Shown here piece after piece: positions 9,315-43,295 of a DNA stretch of 64,000 nucleotides. The DNA is taken from the NCBI GenBank assembly GCA_003210055.1, contig QCNS01000001.1:1-64000 (forward strand), given 5' to 3'. The stretch is from SAR116 cluster bacterium AG-426-I14 (GTDB taxonomy: Bacteria > Pseudomonadota > Alphaproteobacteria > Puniceispirillales > Marisalimonadaceae). The notes beneath the pieces are model-generated. The model searched no databases, was not told the DNA's origin, and was given only the letters and a program-made list of their open reading frames with translations. How positions within the stretch are numbered: the stretch's first letter is position 1; each line of letters begins with the position of its first letter. Position numbers and translations under genes: made by a program.

Positions 9315-9836
9315 ATGATTAAATTCAGCTCTGTGTTTATTTTTTTATTTTTGTTATCAAGTTGTTTTCATAACAACAAGCAAGCTAATTTTGATCCTTT
9401 AAAAAATAAAACAGGATCAAAAGTAACAGTTAAACCAAATTTGATTGTGGAAAGTGCATATGAAGGTTTTTATATCAATGAAAAACTACAGTCAGAATTA
9501 AATAAAATAGAATTTGCGTCTTCTAGGTATCTTAAAGGTAATAAAGATTGTTTAACATTAATTAGAATAAATATTTCGGGCAGCATAGATTATCATCAAC
9601 TTATTCAAACTCTTAAAAAAAGAACATATGACATTGGCGGAAATGCTATTGGGGTTTATGACTATCAAGAAAGAAGACGAGTTTTAGTGAATCAACATGG
9701 ATATGAAATTGAAAAAGATGAAAAAACTAATTACTTTTTTAAGCCCAAAGAATTCAAGTACGTTTTGGTTAAAGATAACCAAAAGTTAGCAAAAATTACA
9801 GCAGATATATTTAAATGTAAACAGAAAGTTAGCTAA
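9315..9836 (+). CDS. Putative lipoprotein of unknown function
   Basis: 173 residues. The N-terminus has a lipoprotein signal peptide with a lipobox LLSSC (cysteine at residue 17), so the protein is probably anchored to a membrane in the periplasm. A good ribosome site (GAAGG) precedes the ATG. The mature part has no family I recognise; two further cysteines (KDCLTL and FKCKQ) could pair. Its stop overlaps the stop of the convergent membrane-protein gene by 8 bases. Confidence 0.6.
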   Translation: MIKFSSVFIFLFLLSSCFHNNKQANFDPLKNKTGSKVTVKPNLIVESAYEGFYINEKLQSELNKIEFASSRYLKGNKDCLTLIRINISGSIDYHQLIQTLKKRTYDIGGNAIGVYDYQERRRVLVNQHGYEIEKDEKTNYFFKPKEFKYVLVKDNQKLAKITADIFKCKQKVS

Positions 9837-10233
9837 TTGGGTGCGTGCTTAAAATATGCATAGCAACTGCTGTTCCACTTATTGCTGATCCAATCATTAT
9901 AGCTCTATCTCCCCATTGCATACCTACATAAATCCATCCGACTGAACTGATTAAGTAAGCCACCTGGCCATAAAGCAAATAAGATGCGCTTATCAAAAAA
10001 ATACCAGAAACTGCTAAAATCATTGATACCCACTTAATATACCAATCTTTCGTTCCTGTTGGCGTGGTAGGCTTGACCTCATCATATTCAGCCTGTAATT
10101 CTTCTAACTCTTTTGCCAAACGTTTTTTTTCATTTGTCAATTCTCTCTGTAAACGGCCTGCTTTTGTTAAGGTTGAACCTGGAATCTCTTCAACATTTTG
10201 ATGATTCACCAAATCAATTGTTTTTTCTGTCAT
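9829..10233 (-). CDS. Coiled-coil membrane protein, DUF6552-like
   Basis: 134 residues. The first half (residues about 20-55) is a charged heptad-like helix (KAGRLQRELTNEKKRLAKEL); the second half has two to three membrane helices with the pattern KWVSMILAVSGIFLISA, SSVGWIYVGMQWGDRAIM and a last short helix. The GWxxVGxxWxDRAIM pattern resembles small alphaproteobacterial membrane proteins grouped as DUF6552; this match is from memory and uncertain. GAGG lies upstream of the ATG. Function unknown. Divergent from the MOSC gene, convergent with the lipoprotein gene. Confidence 0.6.
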   Translation of the reverse strand: MTEKTIDLVNHQNVEEIPGSTLTKAGRLQRELTNEKKRLAKELEELQAEYDEVKPTTPTGTKDWYIKWVSMILAVSGIFLISASYLLYGQVAYLISSVGWIYVGMQWGDRAIMIGSAISGTAVAMHILSTHPIS

Positions 10234-25112: not shown

Positions 25113-25142
25113 AATTTTAAAAAATAACTATGCTTATTAGAA

Positions 25143-26174
25143 TTATAGCATACCCATTTTTTTCATATAGTTTAATTGAGAATTTAGAGCCTCACGAGCA
25201 AGAGGAGTCTTCTTTGCATAAGCTTCCCAAGCACCAACAGCGATCTTACGAAACTTATCTCTCTCTTCCTGTGCCCAATCAACAACTGTAATATCTCCAC
25301 CTGCTTTGTCTTTAGCAACAAGCTCTTTATCTTCCATGTCAGCAAGTCTTCTCATTGTTGTATAAGCAGCTACATACCAAGTTTCTAATGCAGTTTGTTG
25401 ATCTTTACTAAATGAATTGTAAAGTTTTTTGTTCATAACAAACTGAAGATTAGCCATAGAGTGTATACCAGGATAAATTGGAAACTTCGCTATCTTATGC
25501 ATTCCATGAGCTGTATTATTCACGTATGCTGAAGCATCAGCTGCATCAACTATACCCTTTTCTAATGATGTATAAACTTCTGAAAATGGAATTGATGATG
25601 GAGCCGCACCAACTAATCTAAACACTTCAGCTGCAAGTCCTTCAGGTGAACGTATTTTAACACCTTTTAATCCGGCAACACCTGTTATTTTCTTTTTTGA
25701 TACCAAAGCTTCTCTTGAGTAAGGGCTACAACCAATTACTTTTAATTTGCCAGAAGTTACCTTCAATGAGTCATATATTTTTTGCAGCATTTCCTTTCCG
25801 CCACCGACCATACAATAAGATTGTAATTGATCTGGTGTATCATAACCAGCTATTAAGTCACCGATTATTGCAAATGCTGGATCACGACCAGCAAAATATG
25901 AAATAGCATTGAGATCGCCATCTAATATCCCGTTTGCAACAGCATCAATTGTTTCTCTATGAGGAACAACTGCCTTAGTAGGCAAAACGGTTAATGATAG
26001 AGAACCACCAGTCATTGCTTTTAATCTTGGCGCATATTTCTCTGTCATAAATTTATGAGCCCAGTCACCAGCTTTAGAACTAGCCTGAACTTTTATATTT
26101 TTTGCACTTACATTAGTAATTGATAATGTTAAAGCAGCAAGAAATGATAAAAATATTGTAAATTTAAATTTCAT
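25143..26174 (-). CDS. dctP: TRAP transporter solute-binding protein, DctP type
   Basis: 343 residues. A signal peptide (MKFKFTIFLSFLAALTLS... cleaved near VSA) directs it to the periplasm. The DctP core pattern LKGVKIRSPEGLAAEVFRLVGAAPSSIPFSEVY, with the arginine used for carboxylate binding, is present near residue 170. GAGGA precedes the ATG. It is co-oriented with the 40-residue membrane protein gene upstream (31 bases) and divergent from the fused DctQM permease gene, so the three form one split transport system. Binds an organic acid, possibly released by the adjacent amidase; ligand unknown. Confidence 0.87.
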   Translation of the reverse strand: MKFKFTIFLSFLAALTLSITNVSAKNIKVQASSKAGDWAHKFMTEKYAPRLKAMTGGSLSLTVLPTKAVVPHRETIDAVANGILDGDLNAISYFAGRDPAFAIIGDLIAGYDTPDQLQSYCMVGGGKEMLQKIYDSLKVTSGKLKVIGCSPYSREALVSKKKITGVAGLKGVKIRSPEGLAAEVFRLVGAAPSSIPFSEVYTSLEKGIVDAADASAYVNNTAHGMHKIAKFPIYPGIHSMANLQFVMNKKLYNSFSKDQQTALETWYVAAYTTMRRLADMEDKELVAKDKAGGDITVVDWAQEERDKFRKIAVGAWEAYAKKTPLAREALNSQLNYMKKMGML

Positions 26175-26205
26175 TTTAAAATTTCCTCTTTTTTATTTTA
26201 AATTA

Positions 26206-26328
26206 TTAACTAAAACCATCAGCAATACTAAACATGAGATAAATAATCAAAAATGCAATTAAGAATCCCCCTATCCAAGCCCAAGGACCATAATAGGTTA
26301 CATGATCATTTCTACCTTCTGTAGCCAT
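26206..26328 (-). CDS. 40-residue single-span membrane protein upstream of dctP
   Basis: Open frame of 40 codons plus TAA with an ATG at 26328 preceded by a very good ribosome site (GGAGA, 5 bases away). The product begins MATEGRNDHVTYYGPWAW and continues with one hydrophobic span (about residues 17-35: WIGGFLIAFLIIYLMF) and a short polar tail. It is 31 bases upstream of the dctP start on the same strand, so both are probably one transcript. Too short for ordinary gene callers. It may be an auxiliary subunit or a regulator of the TRAP permease; no known family recognised. Confidence 0.7.
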   Translation of the reverse strand: MATEGRNDHVTYYGPWAWIGGFLIAFLIIYLMFSIADGFS

Positions 26329-26458
26329 AGTTAATCTCCTATTACAAAAAGAGTGTTACAAAAAAAAAATATTTTCAACTGATTTTTTTAAATAATTTAC
26401 TGGACTGTAATTTTATTTCTACTATCGTTTTAGTTAAATAATACGGAGATTAAAATTT

Positions 26459-28510
26459 ATGAGCAATTTAAAAACGAGTATAACAGAAACAAATAATGAT
26501 AATTTTCCTGCTCATAAAGACGCATTAAATCCAGTTGACCATATAAGTAAGTTTTTAGGGTTAGCTGTTGCACAACTCTATCTTTTTTGTGCTTTTATTA
26601 CAGCCTATGAAGTTGTTTCAAGATATTTATTTAACTCACCCACTCAATGGGTTTTTGAAACTGTAATGGTTTTATGTGCCTCAGCATGGATGCTTTCAGC
26701 TGGATATATTACGCTCCATAAAAGACACATTGGAATAACGGTTATATACGTTATGGTAGATAAAGCCAAGCAATGGAAATTAGATACTTTTGCTTATATA
26801 ATTGGGATTATTTCTTTATGGTTATTTGTCGATGATACGCTTGTAAGAGCAATTGAGTCAGTAATGATGGTTGAAAGAGGTGGTACAGCATGGAATTCAC
26901 CACAACCTTTAATTTTAAAAACCATGCTTGTTACTGGTGCTTTTATTTATTTGGTTCAACTTCTTGTAAATATATACAGACATTTCGGATCTAAGATAAT
27001 CAAAAATATAATAACATTAATTTCATGTATTATCTTACTCCGATTAATTTTAGTTTTTATTGAACAAGCATTTGGTACGGGAGGTATCGCTTCAAGTATA
27101 AATGCCTATTTCTCTATGATAGGTTCATATTTAGAACCTAATCAATATTGGGATATTAGAGGTATTTCTATTGGAAGTGCAAGTATGATCATTGTAGGTT
27201 TGATGATACTTCTTATGATGACTGGCATGCCATTAGGCATAGTTACTATGTTTGTATCAATTCTTACTGCCTTAATGTTTTTTGGTTATAATGGAATGTA
27301 TCTTGTGTCAACTAACGCATTCGGCCTACTTGAAAAATATCCTTTAGTAGCTGTTCCTTTATTTGTATTAATGGCATCTATACTAGAAAAGGCTGGTGTC
27401 GCAGAAGATTTATTTGATGCGATGCAAATTTTTGCTGGTAAGCTCAGAGGTGGTGTAGCTATCCAAACAATAGTTGTAGCAGTTGTTCTTGCTGCAATGT
27501 CAGGTGTTATGGGCGGTGAAATTGTGATGCTTGGTCTTGTAGCTTTACCTCAAATGATAAGACTTGGTTATAACAAAAGATTGGCAATAGGAGTCGTTTG
27601 TGCATCAGGTGCGCTGGCTACGTTAATTCCACCTAGTATCGTAATGATAGTTTATGGTCTATCAGCAAATGTTGCCATTGGAGATTTATTTATGGCTGGT
27701 GCAGTGCCTGGCCTAATGCTCGCCACTTTTTACGGTCTGTTTACGCTCGCCAGGTGTTATATCAACCCATCTCTAGCTCCAACTGCAGAAGAAGTTGAAA
27801 AAGCGAGAGGTAAAGAAATGAAACTTTCAAAGGAAAAGTATCAAGCTGTTATTTTAAGTGTTTTTCTTATTGCTTGTGTAATGGGATCAATCTATGCCGG
27901 AATTGCATCAGTTACTGAAGCTGCCGCTGTAGGAGCTTTGGGAGCTATGGTTGTGGCTTATATAAGAAATACTTACAGCTGGGATTTGTTACAAAAAGCT
28001 CTTGCTGGAACAATGTCAACCGTTGGAACTATCGTATGGTTAATCCTAGGAGCTGTTGCCTTTGTTGGTATCTATAATTTAATTGGTGGCGCTGACTTCA
28101 TGAGATCATTATTTACAGGATTAGGTTTACCTGCTCTTGGAATAGTCGCTGTAATGATGTTAATTTTAGTTATTTTAGGTACTTTCATGGAATGGATTGC
28201 AATCATATTCATTACAGTACCTGTTTTTGCTCCTGTTGTAGTTGGGATGGCTCCAGAACTAGGACTTGATCCCGCTTGGGCTGCAGTGTGGTTTGGTGTT
28301 TTATTTGTGATGAATATTCAAATATACTTTTTATCACCTCCCTTTGGACCAGCCTGTTTTTGGTTAAAGTCAGTTGCACCACCTGATATTTCTCTTCAAG
28401 AAATATTTATGGCTGTTTTACCTTTCATTGCACTTCAAATAATAGGTATGATGTTGGTGTTGTTTATACCCGATATAGCATTATGGTTTCCAAAATATTT
28501 GTCAGGATAA
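26459..28510 (+). CDS. TRAP transporter fused small and large permease (DctQ-DctM)
   Basis: 683 residues combining both membrane subunits. Residues about 30-185 are the DctQ part with four helices (TAYEVVSRYLFNSPTQWVFE is the DctQ signature); after a linker, residues about 230-680 are the DctM part with LVAVPLFVLMASILEKAG, GVMGGEIVMLGLVALPQM and LATLIPPSIVMIVYGL. It imports the DctP-bound solute using the sodium gradient. GGAG lies before the ATG. It is transcribed away from its binding-protein gene and converges with terC (stops 1 base apart). Confidence 0.88.
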   Translation: MSNLKTSITETNNDNFPAHKDALNPVDHISKFLGLAVAQLYLFCAFITAYEVVSRYLFNSPTQWVFETVMVLCASAWMLSAGYITLHKRHIGITVIYVMVDKAKQWKLDTFAYIIGIISLWLFVDDTLVRAIESVMMVERGGTAWNSPQPLILKTMLVTGAFIYLVQLLVNIYRHFGSKIIKNIITLISCIILLRLILVFIEQAFGTGGIASSINAYFSMIGSYLEPNQYWDIRGISIGSASMIIVGLMILLMMTGMPLGIVTMFVSILTALMFFGYNGMYLVSTNAFGLLEKYPLVAVPLFVLMASILEKAGVAEDLFDAMQIFAGKLRGGVAIQTIVVAVVLAAMSGVMGGEIVMLGLVALPQMIRLGYNKRLAIGVVCASGALATLIPPSIVMIVYGLSANVAIGDLFMAGAVPGLMLATFYGLFTLARCYINPSLAPTAEEVEKARGKEMKLSKEKYQAVILSVFLIACVMGSIYAGIASVTEAAAVGALGAMVVAYIRNTYSWDLLQKALAGTMSTVGTIVWLILGAVAFVGIYNLIGGADFMRSLFTGLGLPALGIVAVMMLILVILGTFMEWIAIIFITVPVFAPVVVGMAPELGLDPAWAAVWFGVLFVMNIQIYFLSPPFGPACFWLKSVAPPDISLQEIFMAVLPFIALQIIGMMLVLFIPDIALWFPKYLSG

Positions 28511-39089: not shown

Positions 39090-40124
39090 ATGAATAAGCT
39101 AATTAGCCTTTTTACTATTTCTATTTTAGCATGTTTTTTTTCTTTTTCTGCCAATGCTGGAAAAGTAACACTTAAATTTCATACATTTGTTCCTGCCCCA
39201 GCAAATTCAAATAAACTATTTGTGTTACCATGGTCTGAAAAAGTTAAAAAAGAGTCTAATGGAGAAATTGTGACAGAAATGTACTACTCAATGCAACTCG
39301 GAGGAAAACCACCTCAGCTTGTTGATCAAGTTAGAGAAGGTGTTGTAGATATAGTTTGGACCGTTGCTGGATATACTCCAGGAAGATTTCCAAGATTGGA
39401 GGCATTTGAGTTACCTTTTCTACCAACAAAGTCAATTATAACATCTCAAGCAGCACAAGAATATGTTGAAACAATTGCAGCAGATGATTTGAAAGACTAC
39501 AAAATTTTAACTGTCCATGTGCACTCTCCAGGAATGATCCATACAAAAAATAAATTGATTAAGTCTATGGATGATTTTAAGGGACTTAAAATGAGAGGTC
39601 CAACAAGAGTTATCACTGGTATGTTAAAAAGCTTAGGAGCTACTCCTGTTGGTATGCCAGTTCCAAAAGTTGCACCATCATTATCAAAAGGTGTTATTGA
39701 CGGAATGGTGGTACCTTGGGAAATAATGCCTTCTTTCAAGTTACAAGAGTTGACTAAAGCTCATACCAATATAACAGGTAATAGAGGTATTTATACAACT
39801 CCATTTTTGTTTATAATGAATAAAGCAAAGTATGAAAGTTTATCTCCATCCCAAAAGAAAGTAATAGACAATAACTCAGGTTTATCTTTAGCTAAGCATG
39901 CAGGAAAATTGTGGGATAGTTTTGAAATACCTGCAAAAGAACTAGCTGTAAAAGCAGGTGGAAAATTTCACACTTTACAAGGCGCTCCTCTAGCCAAAAT
40001 GAAGGCTGTAGGAGAACAAGTAACTAAAGATTGGATTAGTAAAACAAATAAAAAAGGTCTAGATGGTCAAAAGCTACTAGATACTGCTAAAAGTTTGATC
40101 TCAAAATATGAGAAACAACTTTAA
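39090..40124 (+). CDS. dctP: TRAP transporter solute-binding protein, DctP type (second system)
   Basis: 344 residues with a signal peptide cleaved near SANAGK. The DctP core segment FKGLKMRGPTRVITGMLKSLGATPVGMPVPKV (arginine for carboxylate binding) is at about residue 165, and a gap-free TRAP fold continues to the C-terminus. GAGGAG precedes the ATG. It is followed immediately by dctQ (ATG right after the stop). Divergent from the ring-cleavage operon, which suggests that its ligand is an aromatic acid; inference only. Confidence 0.88.
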   Translation: MNKLISLFTISILACFFSFSANAGKVTLKFHTFVPAPANSNKLFVLPWSEKVKKESNGEIVTEMYYSMQLGGKPPQLVDQVREGVVDIVWTVAGYTPGRFPRLEAFELPFLPTKSIITSQAAQEYVETIAADDLKDYKILTVHVHSPGMIHTKNKLIKSMDDFKGLKMRGPTRVITGMLKSLGATPVGMPVPKVAPSLSKGVIDGMVVPWEIMPSFKLQELTKAHTNITGNRGIYTTPFLFIMNKAKYESLSPSQKKVIDNNSGLSLAKHAGKLWDSFEIPAKELAVKAGGKFHTLQGAPLAKMKAVGEQVTKDWISKTNKKGLDGQKLLDTAKSLISKYEKQL

Positions 40125-40661
40125 ATGAAATTTTTTGAGGATCTTATAGTCCTTCAAAATGAGCGACCAAATGATCAATTTGGTCGCATTCTTTTTAATT
40201 TAGCTAACATATTAGCATTTATTGGAGGAATCATCTTAGTTGTTGTTATCTTCATTAATGTAGCTTCAATAATAAGTCGTATTATATTTTCAAACCCTCT
40301 TGTAGGCGATTTTGAATTAGTAAAAATTGGAAGTGCTGTTGCAATAGCATCTTTTTTTCCACTTTGTCATCTAAGAAAAGGTAATGTGATAGTAGATTTT
40401 ATTACAGCGAATTTAAATGCAAAAAAAATATTTTTTCTTGATGCACTAAGTTCTCTTGTTTATACAATTATAGCTTGTTTTTTTACATGGAGAATGATCT
40501 ATGGAGCACAAGACATGTTTAACTATAGCGAAGAAACTATGTTACTCCAATTTCCAGTCTGGATACCATTTGTGCCAGTAATATTTTCCTTTGGACTTCT
40601 CTCTTTATGCTGTTTATACACTTTTTTGAAAGAATATAAATTATTCATTGGTGAAGACTAA
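40125..40661 (+). CDS. dctQ: TRAP transporter small permease subunit, DctQ
   Basis: 178 residues, four membrane helices, with NVASIISRIIFSNPLVGDFELVKIGSAVAI as the DctQ signature. It helps DctM form the translocation channel. The ATG follows the dctP stop directly, so translation is probably coupled. Codons 13-21 form the perfect stem of a strong hairpin followed by a T-run (40163-40195), which looks like a partial terminator inside the coding sequence; the protein reads normally through it (NERPNDQFGRILFNL). Confidence 0.86.
   Translation: MKFFEDLIVLQNERPNDQFGRILFNLANILAFIGGIILVVVIFINVASIISRIIFSNPLVGDFELVKIGSAVAIASFFPLCHLRKGNVIVDFITANLNAKKIFFLDALSSLVYTIIACFFTWRMIYGAQDMFNYSEETMLLQFPVWIPFVPVIFSFGLLSLCCLYTFLKEYKLFIGED
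40163..40195 (+). terminator. Hairpin plus T-run inside the start of dctQ (attenuator-like)
   Basis: GCGACCAAAT (40163-40172) pairs perfectly with ATTTGGTCGC (40178-40187), loop GATCA, then ATTCTTTTT. This has all parts of an intrinsic terminator, with the stem 39 bases after the dctP stop. It would let most transcripts end after dctP and a fraction continue into dctQM. Translation of dctQ through the stem could modulate the effect. Confidence 0.65.
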
Positions 40662-40665
40662 AGTC

Positions 40666-41985
40666 ATGGACAGATTTACTCTAGGTTTAGTTGCTTTTCC
40701 TTTGTTATTCATACTTCTTGCAGTGAGGGTTCCAATTGGTCTTGCAATGCTTTTAGTGGGATGTGCAGGAACAATTTTAGTTTCTGGTTGGTTACCAATT
40801 CTCTCTCTTGCAAAGAGTAGTGTATGGCATTTATTTTCAAATTATGATTTTTCGGTAATCCCATTATTTTTGTTAATGGGAAACTTTGCTTCAAAAGCTG
40901 GTATGAGCGAAGCATTATTTAAATTTGCGGGAGCATGTTTAGGTCATAAAAAAGGCGGAGTTGCTATGGCTGCCGTTGGAGCTTGCGCTGGCTTTGGTGC
41001 CATATGTGGTTCATCATTAGCTACAGCAGCAACAATGGGAAAAGTAGCTTTACCTGAACTTAGAAGGTTAGGCTACTCAGGTGCTCTTAGCACTGGTGCT
41101 CTGGCAGCTGGTGGCACGTTAGGAATATTAATTCCTCCTTCAGTAATATTAATAATATATGCTATTTTGACAGAGCAAAATATTGCAAAAATGTTCTTGT
41201 GTGCTTTTATACCAGGAATTATTGCAGCTATTGGATACATACTTGCTATAGCAATATATGTAAGAATTAATAAAAATGCTGGCCCAACAAATGAACGAGT
41301 TGAATGGAAACAACGTTTACATTTATTTAAAAATATTTGGCATATCCTTTTAATTTTTTTAGTAATGATTGGGGGTATTTATTTAGGGTTTTTTACACCA
41401 ACAGAAGGTGCTGCAGTTGGAGCAGCAGGAACCGGATTAATAGCAGCATTCAATAAAAAATTCAATTTTTTTTCATTTTTAGACGTTGTTCAAAGTACGG
41501 CAATCACTTCAGGAATGATTTTTCTTGTCTTATTAGGAGCAGAGTTTTTTAACTCTTTCATAGCTCTTTCTCAATTACCAAATATATTGGCTGAACTGAC
41601 CGTTAAACATCAATTAACACCCATGATAGTTGTAGCAAGTATATTAATATTATATATTCTTTTAGGTTGTCTCATGGATAGCTTAGCAATGATTTTGTTA
41701 ACTATTCCAGTTTTTTTCCCGTTAGTCATGACTTTAGATTTTGGAATGACACCAGAAGAAACAGCTATATGGTTTGGTATTTTAACATTAATCACGGTAG
41801 AAGTTGGTTTAATAACTCCACCAGTAGGATTAAATGTTTTTATAATTAATAAAATGGCAGGTGATGTCAAAATATCTGAGACATTTAAGGGCGTTATGCC
41901 ATTTTTATTAAGTGATTTTGCTAGAGTAATCTTATTATTTTTCTTTCCAAGTATAACATTAGTTATGTTAAAAATATTTTATTAA
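40666..41985 (+). CDS. dctM: TRAP transporter large permease subunit, DctM
   Basis: 439 residues from the ATG at 40666; a frame six codons longer begins with TTG inside dctQ and is less likely. About twelve hydrophobic segments with DFSVIPLFLLMGNFASKAG, AAVGACAGFGAICGSSLATAATMGK and GTLGILIPPSVILIIYAILTEQ as typical DctM features. It carries the solute across the inner membrane with sodium. Last gene of the dctPQM operon; 90 bases before livK. Confidence 0.88.
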   Translation: MDRFTLGLVAFPLLFILLAVRVPIGLAMLLVGCAGTILVSGWLPILSLAKSSVWHLFSNYDFSVIPLFLLMGNFASKAGMSEALFKFAGACLGHKKGGVAMAAVGACAGFGAICGSSLATAATMGKVALPELRRLGYSGALSTGALAAGGTLGILIPPSVILIIYAILTEQNIAKMFLCAFIPGIIAAIGYILAIAIYVRINKNAGPTNERVEWKQRLHLFKNIWHILLIFLVMIGGIYLGFFTPTEGAAVGAAGTGLIAAFNKKFNFFSFLDVVQSTAITSGMIFLVLLGAEFFNSFIALSQLPNILAELTVKHQLTPMIVVASILILYILLGCLMDSLAMILLTIPVFFPLVMTLDFGMTPEETAIWFGILTLITVEVGLITPPVGLNVFIINKMAGDVKISETFKGVMPFLLSDFARVILLFFFPSITLVMLKIFY

Positions 41986-42075: not shown

Positions 42076-43260
42076 ATGAAAAAATTTTTAATTTCAATCT
42101 TTCTTTCAATTTTTATGATTTATCCTTCTTTTGGAGAAAATGTAAAACTTGGAATAATTTTTGGCTATACTGGACCAATAGAATCATTAACACCTGATAT
42201 GGCTAAAGCTGCCGAATTAGCTATTTCAGAAGTGAATAAATCGGGTAAGTTTATGTCCAGTAATACTAAAATTGAAGGAATAAGAGCTGACTCAACATGT
42301 GTTGATGCAGCAGCAGCAACAGCTGCAGCTGAAAGATTAGTAACATCCGACAAAGTTAATGCTATTGTTGGAGCAGATTGCTCTGGTGTAACTACTGCAA
42401 TTTTACAAAATGTAGCAATGTCAAATGGTGTTGTTATGATTTCACCGTCTGCCACTTCACCAGCTTTATCAACTTTGCCTGATAACGGATTATTTTTCAG
42501 AACGGCTCCCTCTGATGCACGACAAGGAGAAATCGTAGCTAAAATGTTGATTGAAAAGGGATTAAAAAAGGCTGCTATGACCTATACTAATAACGATTAT
42601 GGAAAAGGTCTTGCTGATAGTATTAAAAAAAATTATCAATCAATGGGAGGTAAAATAACTATTTCAGCTTCTCATGAAGATGGGAAAGCTGATTATGGTG
42701 CGGAAGTTTCTGCACTAGCTCAAGCTGGTGGAGATATTTTAATAGTTGCAGGTTATTTAGATCAAGGTGGTAAAGGAATAATTCAAGGTGCTCTTGATGC
42801 TGGTGCTTTTGAAAAGTTTTTCTTGCCGGATGGAATGATTGGAGACTCACTCCCAAAAGCTATAGGTCCTGATTTAAATGGGTCTATTGGTTCTATTCCT
42901 GGCACTGACAGTCCTGGTGCAAAAAAGTTTGCATCATTAGCTAAATCTAATGGGTTTAAGGCTGGTCCATTCTCACAAGAATCCTATGATGCAGCAGCTT
43001 TGATTATGCTCGCAATGCAATCAGCCAAATCTACCAAAAGTAAAGATCTAAAAAATCATGTCATGGATGTAGCAAATGCACCTGGTGAAAAAATTTATCC
43101 TGGTGAACTTTCCAAAGGAATGAGTTTACTTAAACAAGGAAAGAAAATTGATTATGTTGGAGCATCTGCTGTTGAACTAATAGGCGGTGGTGAGTCAGCT
43201 GGTAGTTTTCGTGAAATCTTAATTAAGGGTGGTAAAGTTACCACTGCAGGATATAGATAA
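42076..43260 (+). CDS. livK: Branched-chain amino-acid-type ABC binding protein, LivK
   Basis: 394 residues from the ATG at 42076, which has GGAGA upstream; the frame from a TTG four codons before is rejected. Signal peptide MKKFLISIFLSIFMIYPSFG then the periplasmic type I fold: VKLGIIFGYTGPIESLTPDM, GADCSGVTTAILQNVAMSNGVVMISPSATSP and YTNNDYGKGLADSIK. Binds a branched-chain amino acid, amide or other small amphipathic compound. First gene of livKGFHM; a hairpin follows it. Confidence 0.85.
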   Translation: MKKFLISIFLSIFMIYPSFGENVKLGIIFGYTGPIESLTPDMAKAAELAISEVNKSGKFMSSNTKIEGIRADSTCVDAAAATAAAERLVTSDKVNAIVGADCSGVTTAILQNVAMSNGVVMISPSATSPALSTLPDNGLFFRTAPSDARQGEIVAKMLIEKGLKKAAMTYTNNDYGKGLADSIKKNYQSMGGKITISASHEDGKADYGAEVSALAQAGGDILIVAGYLDQGGKGIIQGALDAGAFEKFFLPDGMIGDSLPKAIGPDLNGSIGSIPGTDSPGAKKFASLAKSNGFKAGPFSQESYDAAALIMLAMQSAKSTKSKDLKNHVMDVANAPGEKIYPGELSKGMSLLKQGKKIDYVGASAVELIGGGESAGSFREILIKGGKVTTAGYR

Positions 43261-43267
43261 AACTTTT

Positions 43268-43295
43268 CGAGGACTCTGAATACTCGGGGTCCTCG
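43268..43295 (+). promoter_or_regulatory. Stem-loop between livK and livG
   Basis: CGAGGAC (43268-43274) pairs with GTCCTCG (43289-43295); a T-G pair, a C-G pair and another T-G pair extend it to ten pairs with an 8-base loop. No T-run follows, so it is a likely mRNA-stabilising or processing stem that lets the binding protein be made in excess over the permease and ATPases. It is the only structured element in the 47-base gap. Confidence 0.65.

Follow-up and report, generated by a model that had tools for sequence, protein, structure and literature searches.

A covarying RNA hairpin within the first codons of dctQ that may set the 3' end of dctP mRNA in a SAR116 TRAP transporter operon

Hairpins behind binding-protein genes and the dctPQM locus

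In ABC importer operons of Clostridia, internal intrinsic terminators after the substrate-binding-protein genes have been shown experimentally (Wu et al. 2022, PMC9045158); these elements came from a search of intergenic regions and were examined by Northern blot. In decay-regulated operons of E. coli, hairpins located in the coding sequence of the downstream gene protect the upstream gene, and the wobble positions of the codons involved are constrained (Dar and Sorek 2018, PMC5927463). The abundant gene in these operons is the upstream one, often encoding a binding protein, the hairpins carry no U-tract, and they were checked for conservation in Salmonella and Enterobacter. The REP element of malE-malF and the puf hairpins, as cited in the same paper, are intercistronic, noncoding, and decay-based.

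For a few ABC systems it is known how one operon yields binding protein in large excess; no such mechanism was found for TRAP transporters in the literature searched. TRAP transporters are abundant in marine Alphaproteobacteria, and the dctPQM genes of R. capsulatus were reportedly studied by Forward et al. in 1997. The operon described here lies on the plus strand of a 64-kb stretch of DNA (referred to as the window) from a SAR116 genome with a completeness of 78%, and consists of dctP (39090..40124; solute-binding protein of 344 aa; Pfam PF03480, E = 2.4e-42), dctQ (40125..40661; small membrane subunit of 178 aa; PF04290, E = 1e-15; orthologues found), and dctM (40666..41985; large membrane subunit; PF06808, E = 5.5e-90). 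The stop codon of dctP ends at 40124, and the ATG of dctQ directly follows at 40125.

The original prediction placed a perfect 10-bp stem with the loop GATCA and a U-rich tail within codons 13-24 of dctQ, and this was borne out at 40163-40196 on the plus strand. The 5' arm (GCGACCAAAT; 40163..40172) comprises the third base of codon 13 followed by R14, P15, and N16, and the loop (40173..40177), seen in both sequence and folds, is followed by the 3' arm (ATTTGGTCGC; 40178..40187), which comprises the third base of codon 18 followed by F19, G20, and R21; both arms were supported by covariation (see below). The stem thus spans position 3 of codon 13 to position 3 of codon 21, begins 38 nt past the dctP stop, and is directly followed by the U-rich tract ATTCTTTTT (40188..40196; codons 22-24) with 6 T among its first 8 bases. 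A terminator scan picked up the same element (10 pairs, 5 GC, U-rich tail), and the short 5-nt loop and stable stem expected of an intrinsic terminator were reflected in folding: -16 kcal/mol and z = -5.1 for the 45-nt hairpin piece, and z = -3.9 for a 141-nt piece. It was the sole perfect stem of at least 10 bp in the window (at least 4 GC, loop of 3-8 nt). No Rfam family matched at the gathering score anywhere in the window. A dispersed repeat was rejected, since the pattern occurred a single time in its own genome and, where relatives had it, likewise a single time in each.

Covariation of the stem and the U-tract among relatives

Orthologues came from genomes of the same family, order, class, and phylum, and from a named collection (SAR116 single cells, uncultured Alphaproteobacteria, Rhodobacteraceae, and Sedimenticola). 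Among 75 non-redundant loci (<88% identity), 30 carried [RYC][PS]xxx[FIVL]G[RY] at the hairpin codons; these relatives, from SAR116 and other Alphaproteobacteria, were picked by amino acids alone, and the codon usage of each locus was estimated from long reading frames only. The stem was retained wholly or largely in all 30, at the same codons, while its sequence varied. The weakest stems among them were those of L021 and L075 (about -11 kcal/mol). Loss of pairing in close relatives, named in the original prediction as evidence against it, was approached in a single sister subclade (L021/L026/L138/L146), in which pairing was weakened, not lost: about -6 to -11.5 kcal/mol.

Since the codons of Arg-Pro and those of Gly-Arg inherently match at their first two bases, the test was put on positions not fixed by the protein. 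The wobble-wobble pairs E13-R21, R14-G20, and P15-F19 were each complementary in 30/30 relatives, against 12.6, 11.9, and 13.7, respectively, expected from their own codon usage (p = 1e-12, 7e-13, and 5e-11; values that treat the sequences as independent and are too small because the sequences are related), and took the forms A-U, U-A, C-G, G-C, G-U, and U-G. The loop-closing pair N16-Q18 was weaker: 21/30 versus 15.3 expected. The problem of kinship was answered in part by tree-based counts and shuffles. When the pairs were mapped on a protein tree that excluded the hairpin codons, E13-R21, R14-G20, and P15-F19 had switched state at least 9, 10, and 4 times, respectively, and all observed states were standard pairs. 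In the gap-free alignment, 71 cells had both sides changed versus 18.3 in shuffles, and the covariation score was 0.594 versus 0.202; neither value was reached by any of the 500 shuffles. When the structure was slid along the alignment, 20-47% of cells paired, versus 95% for the true structure. By synonymous resampling, excess stability was confined to the hairpin (mean z of -3.7 and -2.4 in the two covering windows, and ~0 elsewhere in dctQ), and codon usage or amino-acid constraint alone was rejected. The check proposed in the original prediction, conserved pairing accompanied by synonymous covariation among homologues, was thus strongly passed. Judging from these alignments, paired silent mutations have preserved the hairpin over a very long time.

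The terminator-like U-rich tail also stood up in the family: T in the 10 nt 3' of the stem, pooled over the family, amounted to 174 versus a synonymous expectation of 152 (p = 0.0005), and the excess was found in the 11 relatives above 42% GC as well (59 versus 50; p = 0.0015). Along dctQ, the segment directly after the stem ranked second of 136 positions in T excess, its neighbours being first and third. A Fisher combination of the per-sequence tests was not significant (p = 0.77) because each discrete single-sequence test is weak, while the sum test on pooled counts and the sliding control were significant; the evidence for the U-tract is therefore good, yet weaker than that for the stem. 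In GC-rich relatives (L154 and L162, for example), the stem was present with scarce U, and the U-tract was often missing. The tail score of the dctQ hairpin was 3.34, versus 4.2-5.3 for the intergenic terminators of paralogues.

Hairpins at other TRAP junctions and in other dctQ lineages

A survey covered 87 dctP-dctQ junctions of alphaproteobacterial genomes, in which the upstream genes were recognised by position and length and not by a DctP profile. The mean folding z was -1.95 after dctP versus -0.28 after dctQ and -0.45 inside dctP (p = 1e-10 and 3e-9, respectively), and a stem of at least 11 bp was found in 34/87, 1/87, and 2/87 cases, respectively. The hairpin was located within dctQ at narrow gene gaps (median 4 nt) and between the genes at wide ones (median 83.5 nt). 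The location within dctQ at this locus is accounted for by a dctQ that begins at, or overlaps, the dctP stop and leaves no intergenic room. Three other TRAP operons of the same genome (L220, L224, and L226) had canonical intrinsic terminators 7-21 nt after dctP. On the other hand, no T excess followed the hairpin in GC-rich TRAP operons (1.78 versus a background of 1.57 of 8; p = 0.35), and termination is therefore not the common denominator of the family. The element common to TRAP junctions was a hairpin 20-75 nt 3' of the dctP stop, a position that would lie outside the expected footprint of a terminating ribosome.

Another TRAP operon of the same genome, L213 (contig C4, near 9714-10094, minus strand), had no compact hairpin; its junction (z = -4.5) had GAGATAACC ... 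GGTTATCTC instead, with a loop enclosing the dctQ start codon, a structure that could couple dctQ initiation to itself. A second TRAP system in the window (25136-27000) consists of a dctP-like gene (minus strand) divergent from a fused dctQM (plus strand), and no P-Q junction hairpin is therefore expected there. A 12-bp hairpin without a U-tract was found at 43268-43295 of the window (-19.9 kcal/mol; z = -5.8), 7 nt after the stop of a Peripla_BP_6 binding-protein gene (42076-43260) and ahead of the first ABC ATPase, an arrangement like that of dctP/dctQ in an ABC operon.

DctQ lineages without the motif often had another strong hairpin of unrelated sequence at about the same place (L107/L150/L155/L104, L168/L173, L181, and L163), whereas other motif-less loci (L113, L116, L175, and L180, for example) had none. 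Loci of Sedimenticola (L105/L106/L108) had GC-rich variants of the hairpin lacking codons in the loop. In L107, L150, L155, and L104, a coding hairpin of 15-17 bp (z = -3.5 to -5.9) lay ~20 nt further into dctQ and was conserved in a GC-rich alphaproteobacterial lineage. L168 and L173 shared a conserved coding hairpin at the start of dctQ with a different peptide and no U-tract (in L173, TGGACAAGGGCTCATGCCCTTGTCCA, encoding WTRAHALVH). Part of the DctQ N-terminus may tentatively be regarded as dictated by the RNA hairpin and not by protein function, the residues R-P...G-R and the alternatives Arg-Arg/Tyr-Tyr and Asn-Phe/Thr-Val arising from codon pairing, with hairpins re-invented from unrelated sequences in the early codons of other dctQ lineages wherever dctQ directly adjoins dctP; we hold this idea somewhat less probable than its opposite.

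Proposed role of the hairpin and comparison with known systems

As read from the sequences, a sense-strand hairpin kept by nucleotide-level selection would set the 3' end of dctP mRNA inside dctQ, with a leaky intrinsic terminator as the likeliest form in this low-GC lineage and an excess of binding protein as the outcome; we assign this reading a probability of about 0.6. Most transcripts would end after dctP at the stem and the U-tract, and the dctP transcript end would be capped by the stem, which should also resist 3'-5' exonucleases. A minority of transcripts would read through into dctQM, so that the product of the downstream dctM is expected in lower amount and many binding proteins would be made per membrane transporter. 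The hairpin probably lets the cell make more binding protein than membrane channel. Leaky intrinsic termination is favoured in the low-GC genome because of the U-tract and the paralogous terminators, while for the GC-rich relatives a better fit than termination would be a dctP-only fragment shielded from 3'-5' exonucleases; either would yield excess binding protein. The original prediction of a coding-region terminator after dctP was accordingly upheld in part: stem covariation, U-tract enrichment, and the terminators after dctP in paralogues speak for it, and the frequent lack of a U-tract in GC-rich relatives makes RNA 3'-end protection an alternative. The putative disruption of the hairpin by ribosomes entering dctQ is possible.

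The strongest rival is an exonuclease barrier without termination: the whole dctPQM message would be transcribed, its dctQM part cut and broken down, and the hairpin would halt 3'-5' exonucleases and leave a dctP-only fragment behind, as happens at malE-malF, puf, and the coding-embedded hairpins of E. coli. In its favour, the GC-rich relatives keep the stem and lack the U-tract, and 17/26 such hairpins lay in downstream coding sequence, with no U-tract and with wobble conservation (Dar and Sorek, PMC5927463); a U-tract beyond synonymous expectation in the own genome and mid-GC relatives would, however, be needless for a pure barrier, and we consider about one chance in four appropriate. Translational control is improbable: a hairpin 20-45 nt inside dctQ would slow initiation or early elongation and give less DctQ from unchanged mRNA, as the proximity of the stem to the dctQ start might suggest, and dctQ overlaps the end of dctP in several relatives, so that translation is probably coupled. 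When the gap between the genes is larger, however, the hairpin is near the dctP stop and not the dctQ start; that is, its position tracks the dctP stop.

Two rivals dispense with RNA structure altogether, and both are very unlikely. If R-P-x-x-x-F-G-R were conserved solely for DctQ function, its codons would be self-complementary by chance; the inherent complementarity noted above and the frequency of GR with a hydrophobic neighbour in DctQ even without a hairpin would agree with this, but as stated it was refuted by the wobble positions, complementary in every relative with many pair types. Furthermore, L102 has Tyr for both arginines (Y-P-N-D-L-F-G-Y) and keeps a 14-bp helix, and Asn-Phe was jointly replaced by Thr-Val in six relatives belonging to three further families (L154, L156, L158, L159, L160, and L162), a swap altering both members of one base pair at non-synonymous positions. 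The different hairpins at about the same place in motif-less lineages also argue against it. A DNA palindrome bound by a regulator, to which the near-perfect inverted repeat and the single site in the genome might point, is the least probable of all. Complementarity was conserved and the arm sequence was not, and the non-Watson-Crick cells at the nine main pairs were 15 G-U, 0 A-C, and 4 others; since G-U was tolerated and A-C absent, the selected object is the sense RNA strand, and a DNA operator was rejected.

The analysis yields a simple testable rule: a hairpin soon after dctP, and inside dctQ if the genes abut. The locus also offers an unusually clean example of a single DNA stretch under joint selection for a protein and an RNA structure, and its covariation is strong enough to serve as a benchmark for overlaps of the two.

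Like the clostridial ABC terminators (PMC9045158), the dctQ element is a single hairpin without an anti-terminator, with a stem-loop and a modest U-tract placed directly behind the binding-protein gene and ahead of dctM and most of dctQ, and excess binding protein is expected. It differs from them in belonging to a TRAP operon and not an ABC importer operon, in lying inside the coding sequence of the next gene and not between genes, and in that the evidence is covariation and not experiment. With the embedded hairpins of E. coli (PMC5927463), it shares the location in early codons of the downstream gene (13-21 of dctQ), the constrained wobble positions, and, as proposed for dctP, an abundant upstream gene. 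Unlike them, it has a U-tract in its own genome (the GC-rich relatives would match them in this respect), and compensatory changes keep its pairing across distant Alphaproteobacteria. As with the malE-malF REP and puf hairpins, as far as they are described in PMC5927463, the upstream part of the operon would become more abundant, but the dctQ hairpin is coding and not intercistronic. A literature search, with many subscription papers outside its reach, found no TRAP-specific precedent for a dctP-dctQ hairpin. Both principles are known, from ABC operons of Clostridia and from coding-embedded hairpins of E. coli; the dctQ hairpin brings them together in a TRAP operon, its covariation reaches much deeper, and within the literature searched it is this deeply covarying TRAP case that is new.
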